From an uncultured Desulfobulbaceae bacterium (GTDB lineage: Bacteria > Desulfobacterota > Desulfobulbia > Desulfobulbales > CALZHT01): 46,001 bases of DNA. The translations under genes and the position numbers were made by a program. The stretch lies in contig CALZHT010000046.1 of the NCBI GenBank assembly GCA_945787445.1, positions 1-46,001 of the forward strand, in the 5' to 3' direction. The notes beneath the pieces were generated by a model. The model did no database searches. It was not told the DNA's origin and saw only the letters and a list, made by a program, of their open reading frames with translations. Of the stretch, positions 42,814 to 46,001 are shown piece by piece (position 1 is the stretch's first letter; each line of letters begins with the position of its first letter).

Positions 42814-43101
42814 TTATACCGATACCAACGAAACAATTTGCTGAGATGCAAGACGCTCAATAGTATTACTAAACAACCCTCGTCTCGAAGACGAGAATTG
42901 TTTAGTTTGTTTCTTTTCCTGTAATTTACACAAGAAACGAGAAAGACTCTCTTTTTGGGTGGGAGTGGAATGATATTTTTGGTAAAAATCAAGATAATAA
43001 CGCAACCATTTTTTAAAAAACAAACGTGCATTTTCCGGAATTTTCTTGGTCCGTAAGTACGCCTCGAATTTGATCTGCAACACTGAGGGTAGGGTGAGCA
43101 T
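42814..43101 (-). pseudogene. Integron-integrase (IntI-type) N-terminal remnant
   Basis: The first about 70 residues of this 95-codon frame read as the N-terminal SAM-like core-binding domain of an integron integrase: FEAYLRTKKIPENARLF, KKWLRYYLDFYQKYH, KESLSRFLCKLQEKKQTK. The sequence then leaves the family pattern at a palindrome (42869-42905), and the catalytic domain with the Arg/His/Tyr residues is absent up to the TauE/SafE gene. A GGAGAT ribosome-binding site lies before the ATG. It faces away from the cassette-like genes to its right, which is the arrangement of intI and attI in integrons. It is inactive. A XerC-like origin is less likely given the domain pattern. Confidence 0.7.
42869..42905. 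terminator. Two-part palindrome at the end of the integrase remnant
   Basis: CTAAACAA-CC-CTCGTCT-CGA-AGACGAG-AA-TTGTTTAG folds as a hairpin with a small symmetric internal loop. It sits between the convergent TauE/SafE gene and integrase stump and marks the point where the integrase sequence breaks off. It could be a terminator or the end of an insertion. Confidence 0.55.
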
Positions 43102-43334
43102 CCAAAGATCTCCAGAAACTGGTTATTCTTCCATTTGTAATGATATACAGAAAAGCAGGTAAACATTTAGAAATGACTTGGCAAGCATATTTTAGATAGA
43201 ATATAACGATACTATCATTAGATAGAGGAAAGGGACCTCGTAATTGACCACTTGGCTGAGAGTTATTTGCCTGGTAGAGAAACTATAGGGCACCTTCACC
43301 CTCGTGGAGATATACAGAAACTGTAGAATTACTT

Positions 43335-43341
43335 GTTAGAA
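43335..43341 (+). other. Integron boundary core site GTTAGAA (attI-like)
   Basis: GTTAGAA lies 34 bases before the dioxygenase start. Its TTAGAA half is the exact complement of the TTCTAA part of the R'' box at the end of the same cassette (44017-44023), as expected when a circular cassette is opened between G and TT. The stretch from 43102 would be attI; GATATACAGAAA occurs there twice (near 43141 and 43312), possible integrase-binding repeats. Confidence 0.6.
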
Positions 43342-43374
43342 ATAAAGGAAATTATTTATTTATGGGAGCCTTAA

Positions 43375-43974
43375 ATGAATAGTCTAAAATATTCTTTTAT
43401 TATTATAATTTTTATTCAATTGGTTTTTGGATGTCAAATGCACGCCGAACACAAACTCCCAAAAACTCCTTCCGATTATGAAGGTCCTTTTTATCCTGTT
43501 AGCAAACAGAATGATGAAGACAATGATCTAACTCAAATTGCTGGTAAAATAAAAAAGGCAGAAGGTGAAATTCTAAATTTATCAGGAATTGTTATTAACA
43601 CTAATGGTGATCCTTTACCCAGGATGATCGTTGAAATATGGCAGACTGATCCGAATGGAAAATATAAACATCCGAAAGATAAAAGCATTGGAAGTAGAGA
43701 TTCAAACTTTCAATATTGGGGAAAAGCCAAAACTGATAATAGAGGAAAATATTATTTTAAAACATTGATTCCAGGGAAATATGATCCACGTCCTGTTCAC
43801 ATTCATTTCAAGGTCTGGAAAAATAATAAACTATATTTAACAAGTCAGATATATTTCAAAAATTATACTAAGGATTCCAAGCTGAATAATTCAAATATTT
43901 CTCAGCTTCAAAAAATTGAGATAAAAGAAAATGAAAATGGTGAATTTACAGGTTTTTTCCAAATTGTTATTTAA
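43375..43974 (+). CDS. Intradiol-dioxygenase-like lipoprotein (integron cassette)
   Basis: A 199-residue exported protein. The lipobox is LVFGC (Cys20). The mature part matches the intradiol ring-cleavage dioxygenase fold: YEGPFYPVSK, GIVINTNGDPLPRMIVEIWQTDPNGKY (Tyr ligand) and GKYYFKTLIPGKYDPRPVHIHFKVW, which supplies the second Tyr ligand and the HxH pair. All four iron ligands (two Tyr, two His) are kept. Known members cleave catechol or protocatechuate between the hydroxyls; extracellular lipoprotein forms are known but substrates are unclear. The base composition is far more AT-rich than the genes to the left. The ATG at 43375 follows GGGAG. It lies inside a cassette (43336-44077). Confidence 0.83.
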   Translation: MNSLKYSFIIIIFIQLVFGCQMHAEHKLPKTPSDYEGPFYPVSKQNDEDNDLTQIAGKIKKAEGEILNLSGIVINTNGDPLPRMIVEIWQTDPNGKYKHPKDKSIGSRDSNFQYWGKAKTDNRGKYYFKTLIPGKYDPRPVHIHFKVWKNNKLYLTSQIYFKNYTKDSKLNNSNISQLQKIEIKENENGEFTGFFQIVI

Positions 43975-44016
43975 GTAACTTAAAGACGTTGGTGTGGAGA
44001 GTGCAACAATAAAGGA

Positions 44017-44083
44017 TTCTAACAATTTGCTCCACTTGCCACTGTCACTTACGCGCCAGCGGCAAGTGAGCACGGTGTTAGGA
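44017..44083 (+). other. attC recombination site
   Basis: R'' TTCTAAC (44017-44023) and R' GTTAGGA (44077-44083) bound a 67-base imperfect palindrome. The inner arms CACTTGCC and GGCAAGTG pair, next to GCTC/GAGC with an unpaired base, as in the L'' and L' boxes of integron attC sites. The spacer ACTGTCACTTACGCGCCAGC forms the loop. This has the size and symmetry of an attC site and lies between two cassette genes. Confidence 0.8.
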
Positions 44084-44095
44084 GGCAAACTCACT

Positions 44096-45106
44096 GTGCC
44101 ATATCAGAAGGAACATGAAGTAGAAGTTATATCGGCAGTGAGGAAATTTGCCCAATCATTTAATTCTGGAAGCAAAGTGGTTGCAGATATGTCGATGTTG
44201 GTTGAGGCAACATCACAACTATCATTAGCAAATTTAGAATTTTGGGAGCGACTAATCCGGTGGGAGTTTTCTAAAGAGCTAAAGTCGTCGATGACCCCTA
44301 AATGGAAGTTTTGGGCACAGTCTACCCCTTTTTTAACATGGATAGATTTATGCAGTGCGGACGGTTTTAAACGTGAGAAAACGTTGCGCACTCTATCTGG
44401 GGCAGCACCTAATAGTTTCTTTTTTGCATTAGCAGTACGTCGACTTAATGACTGGGTAATTCAGGTCCGAGAAGCAGCACGTAACGCGCTTCCAATTATT
44501 GCAAAATCAACCAAGCCAGAAATTGTTGTTGATGTATTGTGTGCAACATTCCCTCATTGGAACTCATGGGGTCGCATGGATGACGAAGACAAACAAGTGA
44601 TGCTGGAAATCACTGCTATAGAAGAAGTAGGTTACTCACTTAAAACGAGAATTCTGTCAGCTACCTCCGGTCCGATGACGTCGATACTATCGCAGGCCGG
44701 GCGTACTGAAATATTAGATAATTACTTGGAGGAGCTTGCAATAAAAGCTATACAGCCGTCAGTGCGAGCAAAGTCATATAGATGCTTGCTTGAAGGAAAA
44801 ATGGTCTGGTTCGCTGGGCGAAAGTGGGTGTGGACTGACAAACGATATTGTGTGGGGCATTTCGAACCGATATTATGCGAGCGAAAGTTACTTGTTACTA
44901 GTCAGTTCCTAGAAACTTTAAAGTCTGCGGCAACAGATCGGTCACCAATAGTTCGACGCGTTGCTGGCGAAATGCTTATACGTGAACTAGATAAAATTGG
45001 TACTGAGTCTTTGATGTTGGCTCAACTGCTCGCGTCTGACCCCTCACCGTCAGTGGCAGAGCGTGGAATATTTGCATTGAATAAATTGGGAAATCCTGCT
45101 TTATGA
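44096..45106 (+). CDS. HEAT-repeat-like protein (integron cassette)
   Basis: A 336-residue protein if started at GTG 44096. The alpha-helical repeats look HEAT-like: NDWVIQVREAARNALPIIAKS, FLETLKSAATDRSPIVRRVAGEMLIREL and LLASDPSPSVAERGIFALNKLG. No signal peptide is present. The open frame extends back to 43994, but that part overlaps the attC, so the start must lie inside the cassette; AGGAGG at 44080-44085, made by the R' site itself, lies 10 bases before the GTG. Codon use is unlike the left-hand genes. Function unknown; such repeats usually mediate protein binding. Confidence 0.65.
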   Translation: MPYQKEHEVEVISAVRKFAQSFNSGSKVVADMSMLVEATSQLSLANLEFWERLIRWEFSKELKSSMTPKWKFWAQSTPFLTWIDLCSADGFKREKTLRTLSGAAPNSFFFALAVRRLNDWVIQVREAARNALPIIAKSTKPEIVVDVLCATFPHWNSWGRMDDEDKQVMLEITAIEEVGYSLKTRILSATSGPMTSILSQAGRTEILDNYLEELAIKAIQPSVRAKSYRCLLEGKMVWFAGRKWVWTDKRYCVGHFEPILCERKLLVTSQFLETLKSAATDRSPIVRRVAGEMLIRELDKIGTESLMLAQLLASDPSPSVAERGIFALNKLGNPAL

Positions 45107-45122
45107 TTTCCACCCCAAGCCT

Positions 45123-45240
45123 CCTAACTATACGATTGAGTTGATGCGAAGAACTTCGGCGGCGCTGTCGCAGGAAAGGCAGTTGGCGCACCACTCAGCT
45201 TAACGATTCTGCAGGAGAATTCTCAATCAACTATGTTCGC
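45123..45240 (+). other. Second attC candidate, long type
   Basis: TCCTAAC (45123-45129) is the exact complement of GTTAGGA, the core that opens this cassette at 44077-44083. GATTGAG near 45135 pairs with CTCAATC near 45223, and GCGCTG pairs with CAGTTGGCGC inside. The right core would be GTTCGCT near 45234, which departs from GTTRRRY. The site would be near 115 bases. The left half is well supported, the right boundary is not. Confidence 0.5.
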
Positions 45241-45372
45241 TACGACTATCAATTTCTTAATCACGGTTACACTAAGGTTGCTACTGAGGTTTAATCCGCC
45301 ACCTGAGCCTCGGGTTTATAAAGGTGAAGGCTCCATTAAGAAACTCGCCCTCCATGTTGCTGATGGAGAACG

Positions 45373-45500
45373 GGCAAGAAGGGGGTCAGGTCTTGCAAAA
45401 TCAGTTTTTTCTTGTTTTTTTATCCAGGCGCTTTACAGGCAAGAAGGGGGTCAGGTCTTGCAAAATCAGTTTTTTCTTGTTTTTTTATCCAGGCGCTTTA
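45373..45500. repeat. Tandem 66-bp duplication with GGGGGTCAGGTCTTGC motif
   Basis: Two copies of a unit starting GGCAAGAAGGGGGTCAGG are joined head to tail with period 66; the second copy matches 62 bases. The motif GGGGGTCAGGTCTTGCA resembles sequences often seen around REP-associated Y1 transposases, but no transposase is present. The interval 45501-45881 shows no gene; CATTAATTCAAA occurs twice. Confidence 0.8.
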
Positions 45501-45881
45501 TGAAAATCCACCGATACGGATTTAGATTTACGTGATAAGGCCGGAAAATGATGCCAGACTGAAATTAAAGGCTTCATATGTAAAAAACAATTGTTTCCAT
45601 AGTAATTCGAGCGTAAAAACTCTTGAACTTATTCGATGCGTGGAAGACGCTGCCACTCTTGGTTTCAATAATGCAATAGGCATTAATTCAAATTAATCTG
45701 ACTCAAGATTAATATTAGAAATGGTTCGAAAATTAGCGGACATTAATTCAAAATGCAGATGTAAAAAATGCATTACAAATAAATTTAGATGATTCGAAGG
45801 GGTCCCGTTTTTTCGAGATACACCGGTGGCTCACCTCTGATTAAAATCGTTAACCAAGAATAAAACAACTTGCAAAAATTA

Positions 45882-45923
45882 AAATTAAGACCTAATATAG
45901 GTATATATTTTAGGTCTTAATTT
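45882..45923 (+). promoter_or_regulatory. Palindromic operator of the antitoxin gene
   Basis: AAATTAAGACCTAA and TTAGGTCTTAATTT are perfect 14-base arms around a 14-base AT-rich centre. It lies 17 bases before the antitoxin ATG and probably overlaps its promoter. Antitoxins of this type repress their own operons by binding such sites. Confidence 0.7.
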
Positions 45924-45940
45924 AATAAAGAGGTGCCACA

Positions 45941-46001
45941 ATGGAATCAGTATTAGCAAGTTGTTCAGCAAGCATATCTGAATTAAAGAAAAATCCCTCC
46001 T
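45941..46001 (+). CDS. Phd/YefM-family antitoxin (start only)
   Basis: The window ends 20 codons into this gene. The protein opens MESVLASCSASISELKKNPS, the N terminus of Phd/YefM (YafN-like) antitoxins, which contribute a DNA-binding fold and neutralise a RelE- or YoeB-type toxin. The ATG follows AGAGGTG. A palindromic operator precedes it. A toxin gene would be expected just beyond the window. Such pairs are frequent cassettes of sedentary chromosomal integrons, so it may be cassette 3. Confidence 0.8.
   Translation, partial: MESVLASCSASISELKKNPS

Follow-up and report, generated by a model that had tools for sequence, protein, structure and literature searches.

A putative small chromosomal integron with a truncated long-type integrase gene in an uncultured Desulfobulbaceae bacterium

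The integrase stump, attI and two cassettes

The window analysed here is a stretch of 46,001 bases that forms contig C46 of a 4.46-Mb draft genome (227 contigs), and its right end carries an integrase stump, an attI site, two gene cassettes and the beginning of a toxin-antitoxin gene cluster. C46 and contig C118 are joined by an exact overlap of 99 bases, the last of the former and the first of the latter, and the locus continues in C118. For comparison, 57 relatives of the order were used, none of them of the same genus; in the relatives checked, the flanking genes of the locus are on separate contigs. Rfam includes no family matching the integron region.

The truncated integron integrase gene is a 95-codon open frame on the minus strand (42814–43101), in which residues 1–67 (42901–43101) are homologous to integrases and the remainder is read-through past the break. 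The homologous residues are 61–63% identical to full-length integrases of relatives (L024/L025), homologues that belong to the integron-integrase family TIGR02249, in agreement with the sequence-only reading, which had noticed an IntI-type N-terminal stump facing left at 43101. As the stump aligns with residues 1–67 of the long IntI type described below, it is identified by this alignment as the extra N-terminal domain of such a protein, which refines that reading. Its own match to PF13495 falls under the cut-off (E=0.004), and Cys40, invariant in 40 intact members (alignment A2), is replaced by Tyr. The stump has no plasmid match. The aligned DNA of the stump and its relatives agrees to about position 42900, where homology ends, and a search of the assembly contigs revealed no catalytic remainder of a long-type integrase elsewhere in the genome. 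These two observations argue that the gene is truncated, with the usual caution for draft assemblies. The gene stops at codon 67 and so lacks the catalytic R, H, R, H and Y residues and the IntI-specific extra domain by which a functional integrase is recognized; intact relatives retain R289, H420, R423, H446 and Y455. A terminator-like hairpin (CTAAACAA..TTGTTTAG; 42866–42906), present as a single copy in the genome, lies at the break point, with its T-rich tail towards the adjacent TauE gene.

A recurrent programmed end point after KKQT was considered, as the stump in contig C201 of genome G042 is alike, and was rejected: the end in C201 is a stop codon, beyond which the frame continues. At that locus (L060, 3782 onward), where attI is intact, a decayed long IntI gene is interrupted at codon 67 by an in-frame stop and truncated further on, an independent decay of this gene type.

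The attI site (43307–43340, plus strand; GAGATATACAGAAACTGTAGAATTACTTG^TTAGA) is a block common to 36 loci, counting the window. The block has the approximate form GATATACAGAAAC-N5-GAATNACTTG^TT (also given as GATATACAGAAAC..GAAT.ACTTG^TT) and precedes the start codon of a full or broken integrase gene by 112–288 bases at these loci. Sequence similarity between the window and its two nearest relatives persists as far as ACTTG^TTA and is lost immediately beyond the crossover; contig C168 of G042 stops a few bases short of this point. The shared block and the divergence right after G^TT fix the crossover at G43335/T43336, the position that the GTTAGAA of the sequence-only reading had already suggested. 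The core motif is found at 20 of 31 loci with intact and 8 of 27 with broken integrase genes, compared with 0.4% of random 250-base windows from the same loci. On the basis of this conservation, 43307–43335 is regarded as a genuine attI.

The left block of attI (GATATACAGAAAC), at 43307–43321, recurs near the integrase start, at 43105–43119 and 43140–43155. At the 36 loci, the best second copy tends to lie about 3 or about 38 bases before the start codon, in most cases oriented like the first (combined p 2e-5). Part of this clustering could be due to overlap with the Shine-Dalgarno and -10 sequences.

Cassette 1 (43336–44077, plus strand; 742 bases) begins with TTAGAA and has the R'' box TTCTAAC (44017–44023), which complements the cassette start; both this box and the GTTAGAA at 43335 are present as had been reported. 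Its gene (43375–43974, plus strand) encodes a 199-aa intradiol ring-cleavage dioxygenase-like protein with a lipoprotein-type signal (PF00775, E=5.2e-22). Among solved structures, its nearest relatives are protocatechuate 3,4-dioxygenase beta chains (E=4.3e-20), and PG-x-Y and H-x-H are retained in the alignment. Homologues (48–55%) are encoded in five of the relatives, where no recognizable attC flanks them. The attC1 site (44017–44083, plus strand; 67 bases) extends from this R'' box to the R' box GTTAGGA (44077–44083). Its bottom strand folds at -20.9 kcal/mol (z -6.4 against shuffles) and its top strand at -15.7 (z -3.4). A strict scan for R'', R' and stem found one such site per strand in the 46 kb, compared with three in 60 shuffled 46-kb strands; an ungapped L-box scan missed attC1 owing to bulged bases, and a fold-based scan was added. 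By these measures attC1 has all the features of a textbook attC, and the attC proposed earlier for the same positions is upheld.

Cassette 2 (44078–45235, plus strand; 1158 bases) begins with TTAGGA, and its end is set at the G of a degenerate R' box. Its gene (44096–45106, plus strand), with a GTG start behind an AGGAGG that is partly made by the R' box, encodes a 336-aa HEAT-repeat-like protein (PF12765, 22.3 bits against a cut-off of 21). The protein is 52% identical over 99% of its length, from residue 1, to Duffyella/Pantoea plasmid proteins, one of which was inspected and is encoded at an ordinary locus; homologues are found neither in the 57 relatives of the order nor in viral contigs. 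About 16 bases past the stop codon, the R'' box TCCTAAC complements the GTTAGGA at 44077, with which cassette 2 starts; the complementarity had been recognized in the sequence-only reading, in which the box was placed at 45123 rather than at 45122. The second attC-like site of that reading is a degenerate attC2 (45122–45241, plus strand; 120 bases): in addition to the R'' box, the arms L'' and L' (GATTGAG/CTCAATC) pair at 7/7 positions with the correct spacing (p 0.002, conditional on R''), but the R' box GTTCGCT is off consensus and the fold is no better than that of shuffles (z +0.9). This suggests, weakly for the site as a whole, an attC that is degenerate or incomplete. In one reading, the stretch from 45236 onward would be what was once the 3' half of attI, since displaced, and no R' match would then be expected; alternatively, it might be a damaged third cassette.

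A 63-base unit (GGCAAGAAGGGGGTCAGGTCTTGCAAAATC...) occurs twice in tandem at 45372–45504, and this segment and 45553–45591 match contig C130, beside a large multidomain gene. The toxin-antitoxin cluster directly follows the array, from 45941 to the window end and on in C118 to about 2121. Its members are a Phd/YefM and ParE/RelE pair, a PemK/MazF-like toxin frame and, on the opposite strand, another pair of the Phd-RelE-like kind, with no convincing attC between these genes; past them are DUF599 and then sensor-kinase and hydrogenase genes, the last two judged by eye. Scans of C118 for attC revealed no further convincing site. A GGCTAAC..GTTAGG segment at about 580–610 of C118, attC-like at first, was rejected, as it belongs to a repeat that is also present in C130.

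The long IntI type and the other integrases of the genome

The extra N-terminal domain is encoded at 324 loci (stretches of genome contigs), the best 80 of which come from Desulfobacterota, Nitrospirota, Nitrospinota, Planctomycetota (Brocadia, Scalindua), KSB1 and others. Full-length members among those fetched are 402–501 aa. Residues 156–473 of the long type correspond to a normal IntI (L052: TIGR02249, 373 bits against a cut-off of 265), and the catalytic part of the model superposes on Vibrio cholerae IntI (2a3v) over 302 residues (Z 26.5, rmsd 4.6). Two structure predictions give four helices with high confidence for residues 1–89, followed by a disordered linker (92–153).

The N-terminal domain is conserved as a domain across long IntI members and matches PF13495 (Phage_int_SAM_4) in 39 of 40. 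A profile alignment with the members' own core-binding domain gives an E of 1.7e-4 and a probability of 50%. In a structure search with the isolated domain, core-binding domains of the tyrosine recombinases Xer, IntI and Cre ranked at the top by Z, with 81 residues superposed on IntI 2a3v (Z 10.2, rmsd 2.5); the Foldseek E-values are not significant alone. Taken together, the Pfam match, the profile alignment and the structure ranking suggest that the long IntI likely carries a duplicated core-binding domain. It is possible, if rather doubtful, that this extra copy is a working DNA-binding module which, with the attI block and the upstream repeats, alters the reading of attI or the regulation of intI. 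If so, a second architecture of integron recombination would exist across several phyla.

Across long-IntI loci, the rule that cassette ends match as in an excision circle is obeyed by an R'' in 16 of 36 cases, compared with 4.5 expected by chance, and an attC-like fold is also present at the first-cassette site in the window and about ten other loci. The conserved attI and the first-cassette attC at these ten or so loci indicate that the long type works. The open frame is shorter than 400 aa at 34 of the 77 loci with room for a whole gene among the 80 fetched, a count possibly inflated by draft frameshifts.

Elsewhere in the genome, contigs C198 and C91 each carry an intact IntI gene of ordinary size (proteins of 347 and 334 aa). 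The C198 gene adjoins a region (L018, 2622–5831) with an IS91-like transposase and a split XerC/D-like recombinase and is followed by a lexA-like gene; the C91 gene (L019, 10219–11223) is beside a MoxR/von Willebrand-factor-like gene cluster.

Formation and decay of the array

An intI gene, with 67 codons left, lies beside the array and divergent from it, followed by an attI with G^TT and at least one attC. The locus is thus very probably, on these sequence features, a small sedentary chromosomal integron of the deltaproteobacterial long IntI type, the integrase of which was later cut. The earlier view of a small chromosomal integron with a decayed integrase is consistent with the placement and orientation of the stump, the attI shared across species and the cassettes that obey the excision-circle rule. 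An active long IntI would have inserted two cassettes successively at attI (43335/43336), the HEAT-like cassette first and the dioxygenase-like cassette then in front of it. Afterwards, a deletion or rearrangement with its end at the terminator-like hairpin would have severed the integrase gene at codon 67, leaving the stump, attI and two cassettes that could no longer be moved by a cognate integrase. We infer this order of events and the loss of activity. The earlier proposal, in which the array was the work of an active integrase that then disappeared, fits this evidence, but the genome as a whole retains the two other full-length IntI genes.

These genes raise the question of whether the integron is alive, with its cassettes moved in trans by the C198 or C91 IntI. 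Both proteins score above the cut-off of TIGR02249 (470 and 417 bits), and both frames are open over their full length. Recognition of attC sites is mainly by structure, so that reactions in trans between attC1 and other attC sites are plausible, but an attI is usually recognized best by the integrase of its own integron, and the C198 and C91 proteins are only 39–46% identical to the long type. Moreover, neither gene has a recognizable attC array or the window-type attI upstream, and the degenerate attC2 suggests no recent use of the array. Movement in trans is thus considered unlikely. Somewhat less likely still is that only cassette 1 is a true cassette, with the HEAT-like gene and everything after it being ordinary chromosome and TCCTAAC at 45122 a chance occurrence. 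The failure of attC2 to fold better than shuffles would be in line with this, but an exact 7-base complement stands just past the stop codon and is accompanied by fully paired inner arms, and the absence of the HEAT-like gene from the relatives of the order, together with its relatives on plasmids of distant bacteria, is the pattern of a captured gene.

A chimeric join at 42900 would make the truncation an assembly artefact, and the integrase would be intact in the actual population. This is conceivable in a draft of so many contigs, and contigs of relatives often end near the array side of the integrase, but the break is inside a 46-kb contig rather than at its end, no orphan catalytic half was found, and the stump is also substituted at the otherwise invariant cysteine; such an artefact is highly improbable. 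The favoured explanation remains a sedentary integron of the long IntI type that lost its integrase by truncation.

Comparison with known systems

About one third of intI genes have been described as pseudogenes, and proteins 20% larger than IntI1 were counted among them (Nemergut et al., 2008; PMC2426708). In the same study, clade 15 from Deltaproteobacteria was noted for a shared gene fusion that makes its proteins about 120 aa longer and perhaps functional, and the function was left open (PMC2426708). Both the long type and its decay therefore have precedent. A limited literature search returned no later paper on an added IntI domain.

Taken by itself, the locus adds another example to a well-documented pattern of integron decay. 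Its broader value lies in what it shows of the integrase type from which the stump derives, an enlarged and little-studied IntI with 324 loci and an attI consensus of its own; a similarly enlarged clade had earlier been suspected of consisting of pseudogenes. What the added domain does can now be tested directly. In addition, the ACTTG^TT block can serve as a marker when integrons are sought in Desulfobacterota, Nitrospirota and anammox genomes of poor assembly.

By description, the clade 15 proteins (PMC2426708) can be likened to the long deltaproteobacterial IntI, and the stump corresponds to the additional portion of such proteins; what differs here is that the extra part is seen as a conserved, core-binding-like domain tied to shared attI and attC sites. 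Like Vibrio cholerae IntI (PDB 2a3v), the long type has a catalytic part that superposes on that structure, but unlike it, the long type adds the N-terminal core-binding-like domain (1–89) and the disordered linker. The arrangement of the locus, with a divergent intI, an attI, and one gene and one attC per cassette, resembles that of sedentary chromosomal integrons of the Vibrio and Xanthomonas type, from which this locus differs in having only two cassettes, a truncated integrase and a degenerate last attC. A CALIN, a cluster of attC sites lacking integrase, is usually called only from two attC sites upwards. The window array is like a CALIN in having no functional cognate integrase alongside, but is unlike one in having one clear attC and in retaining both an attI and an integrase stump.
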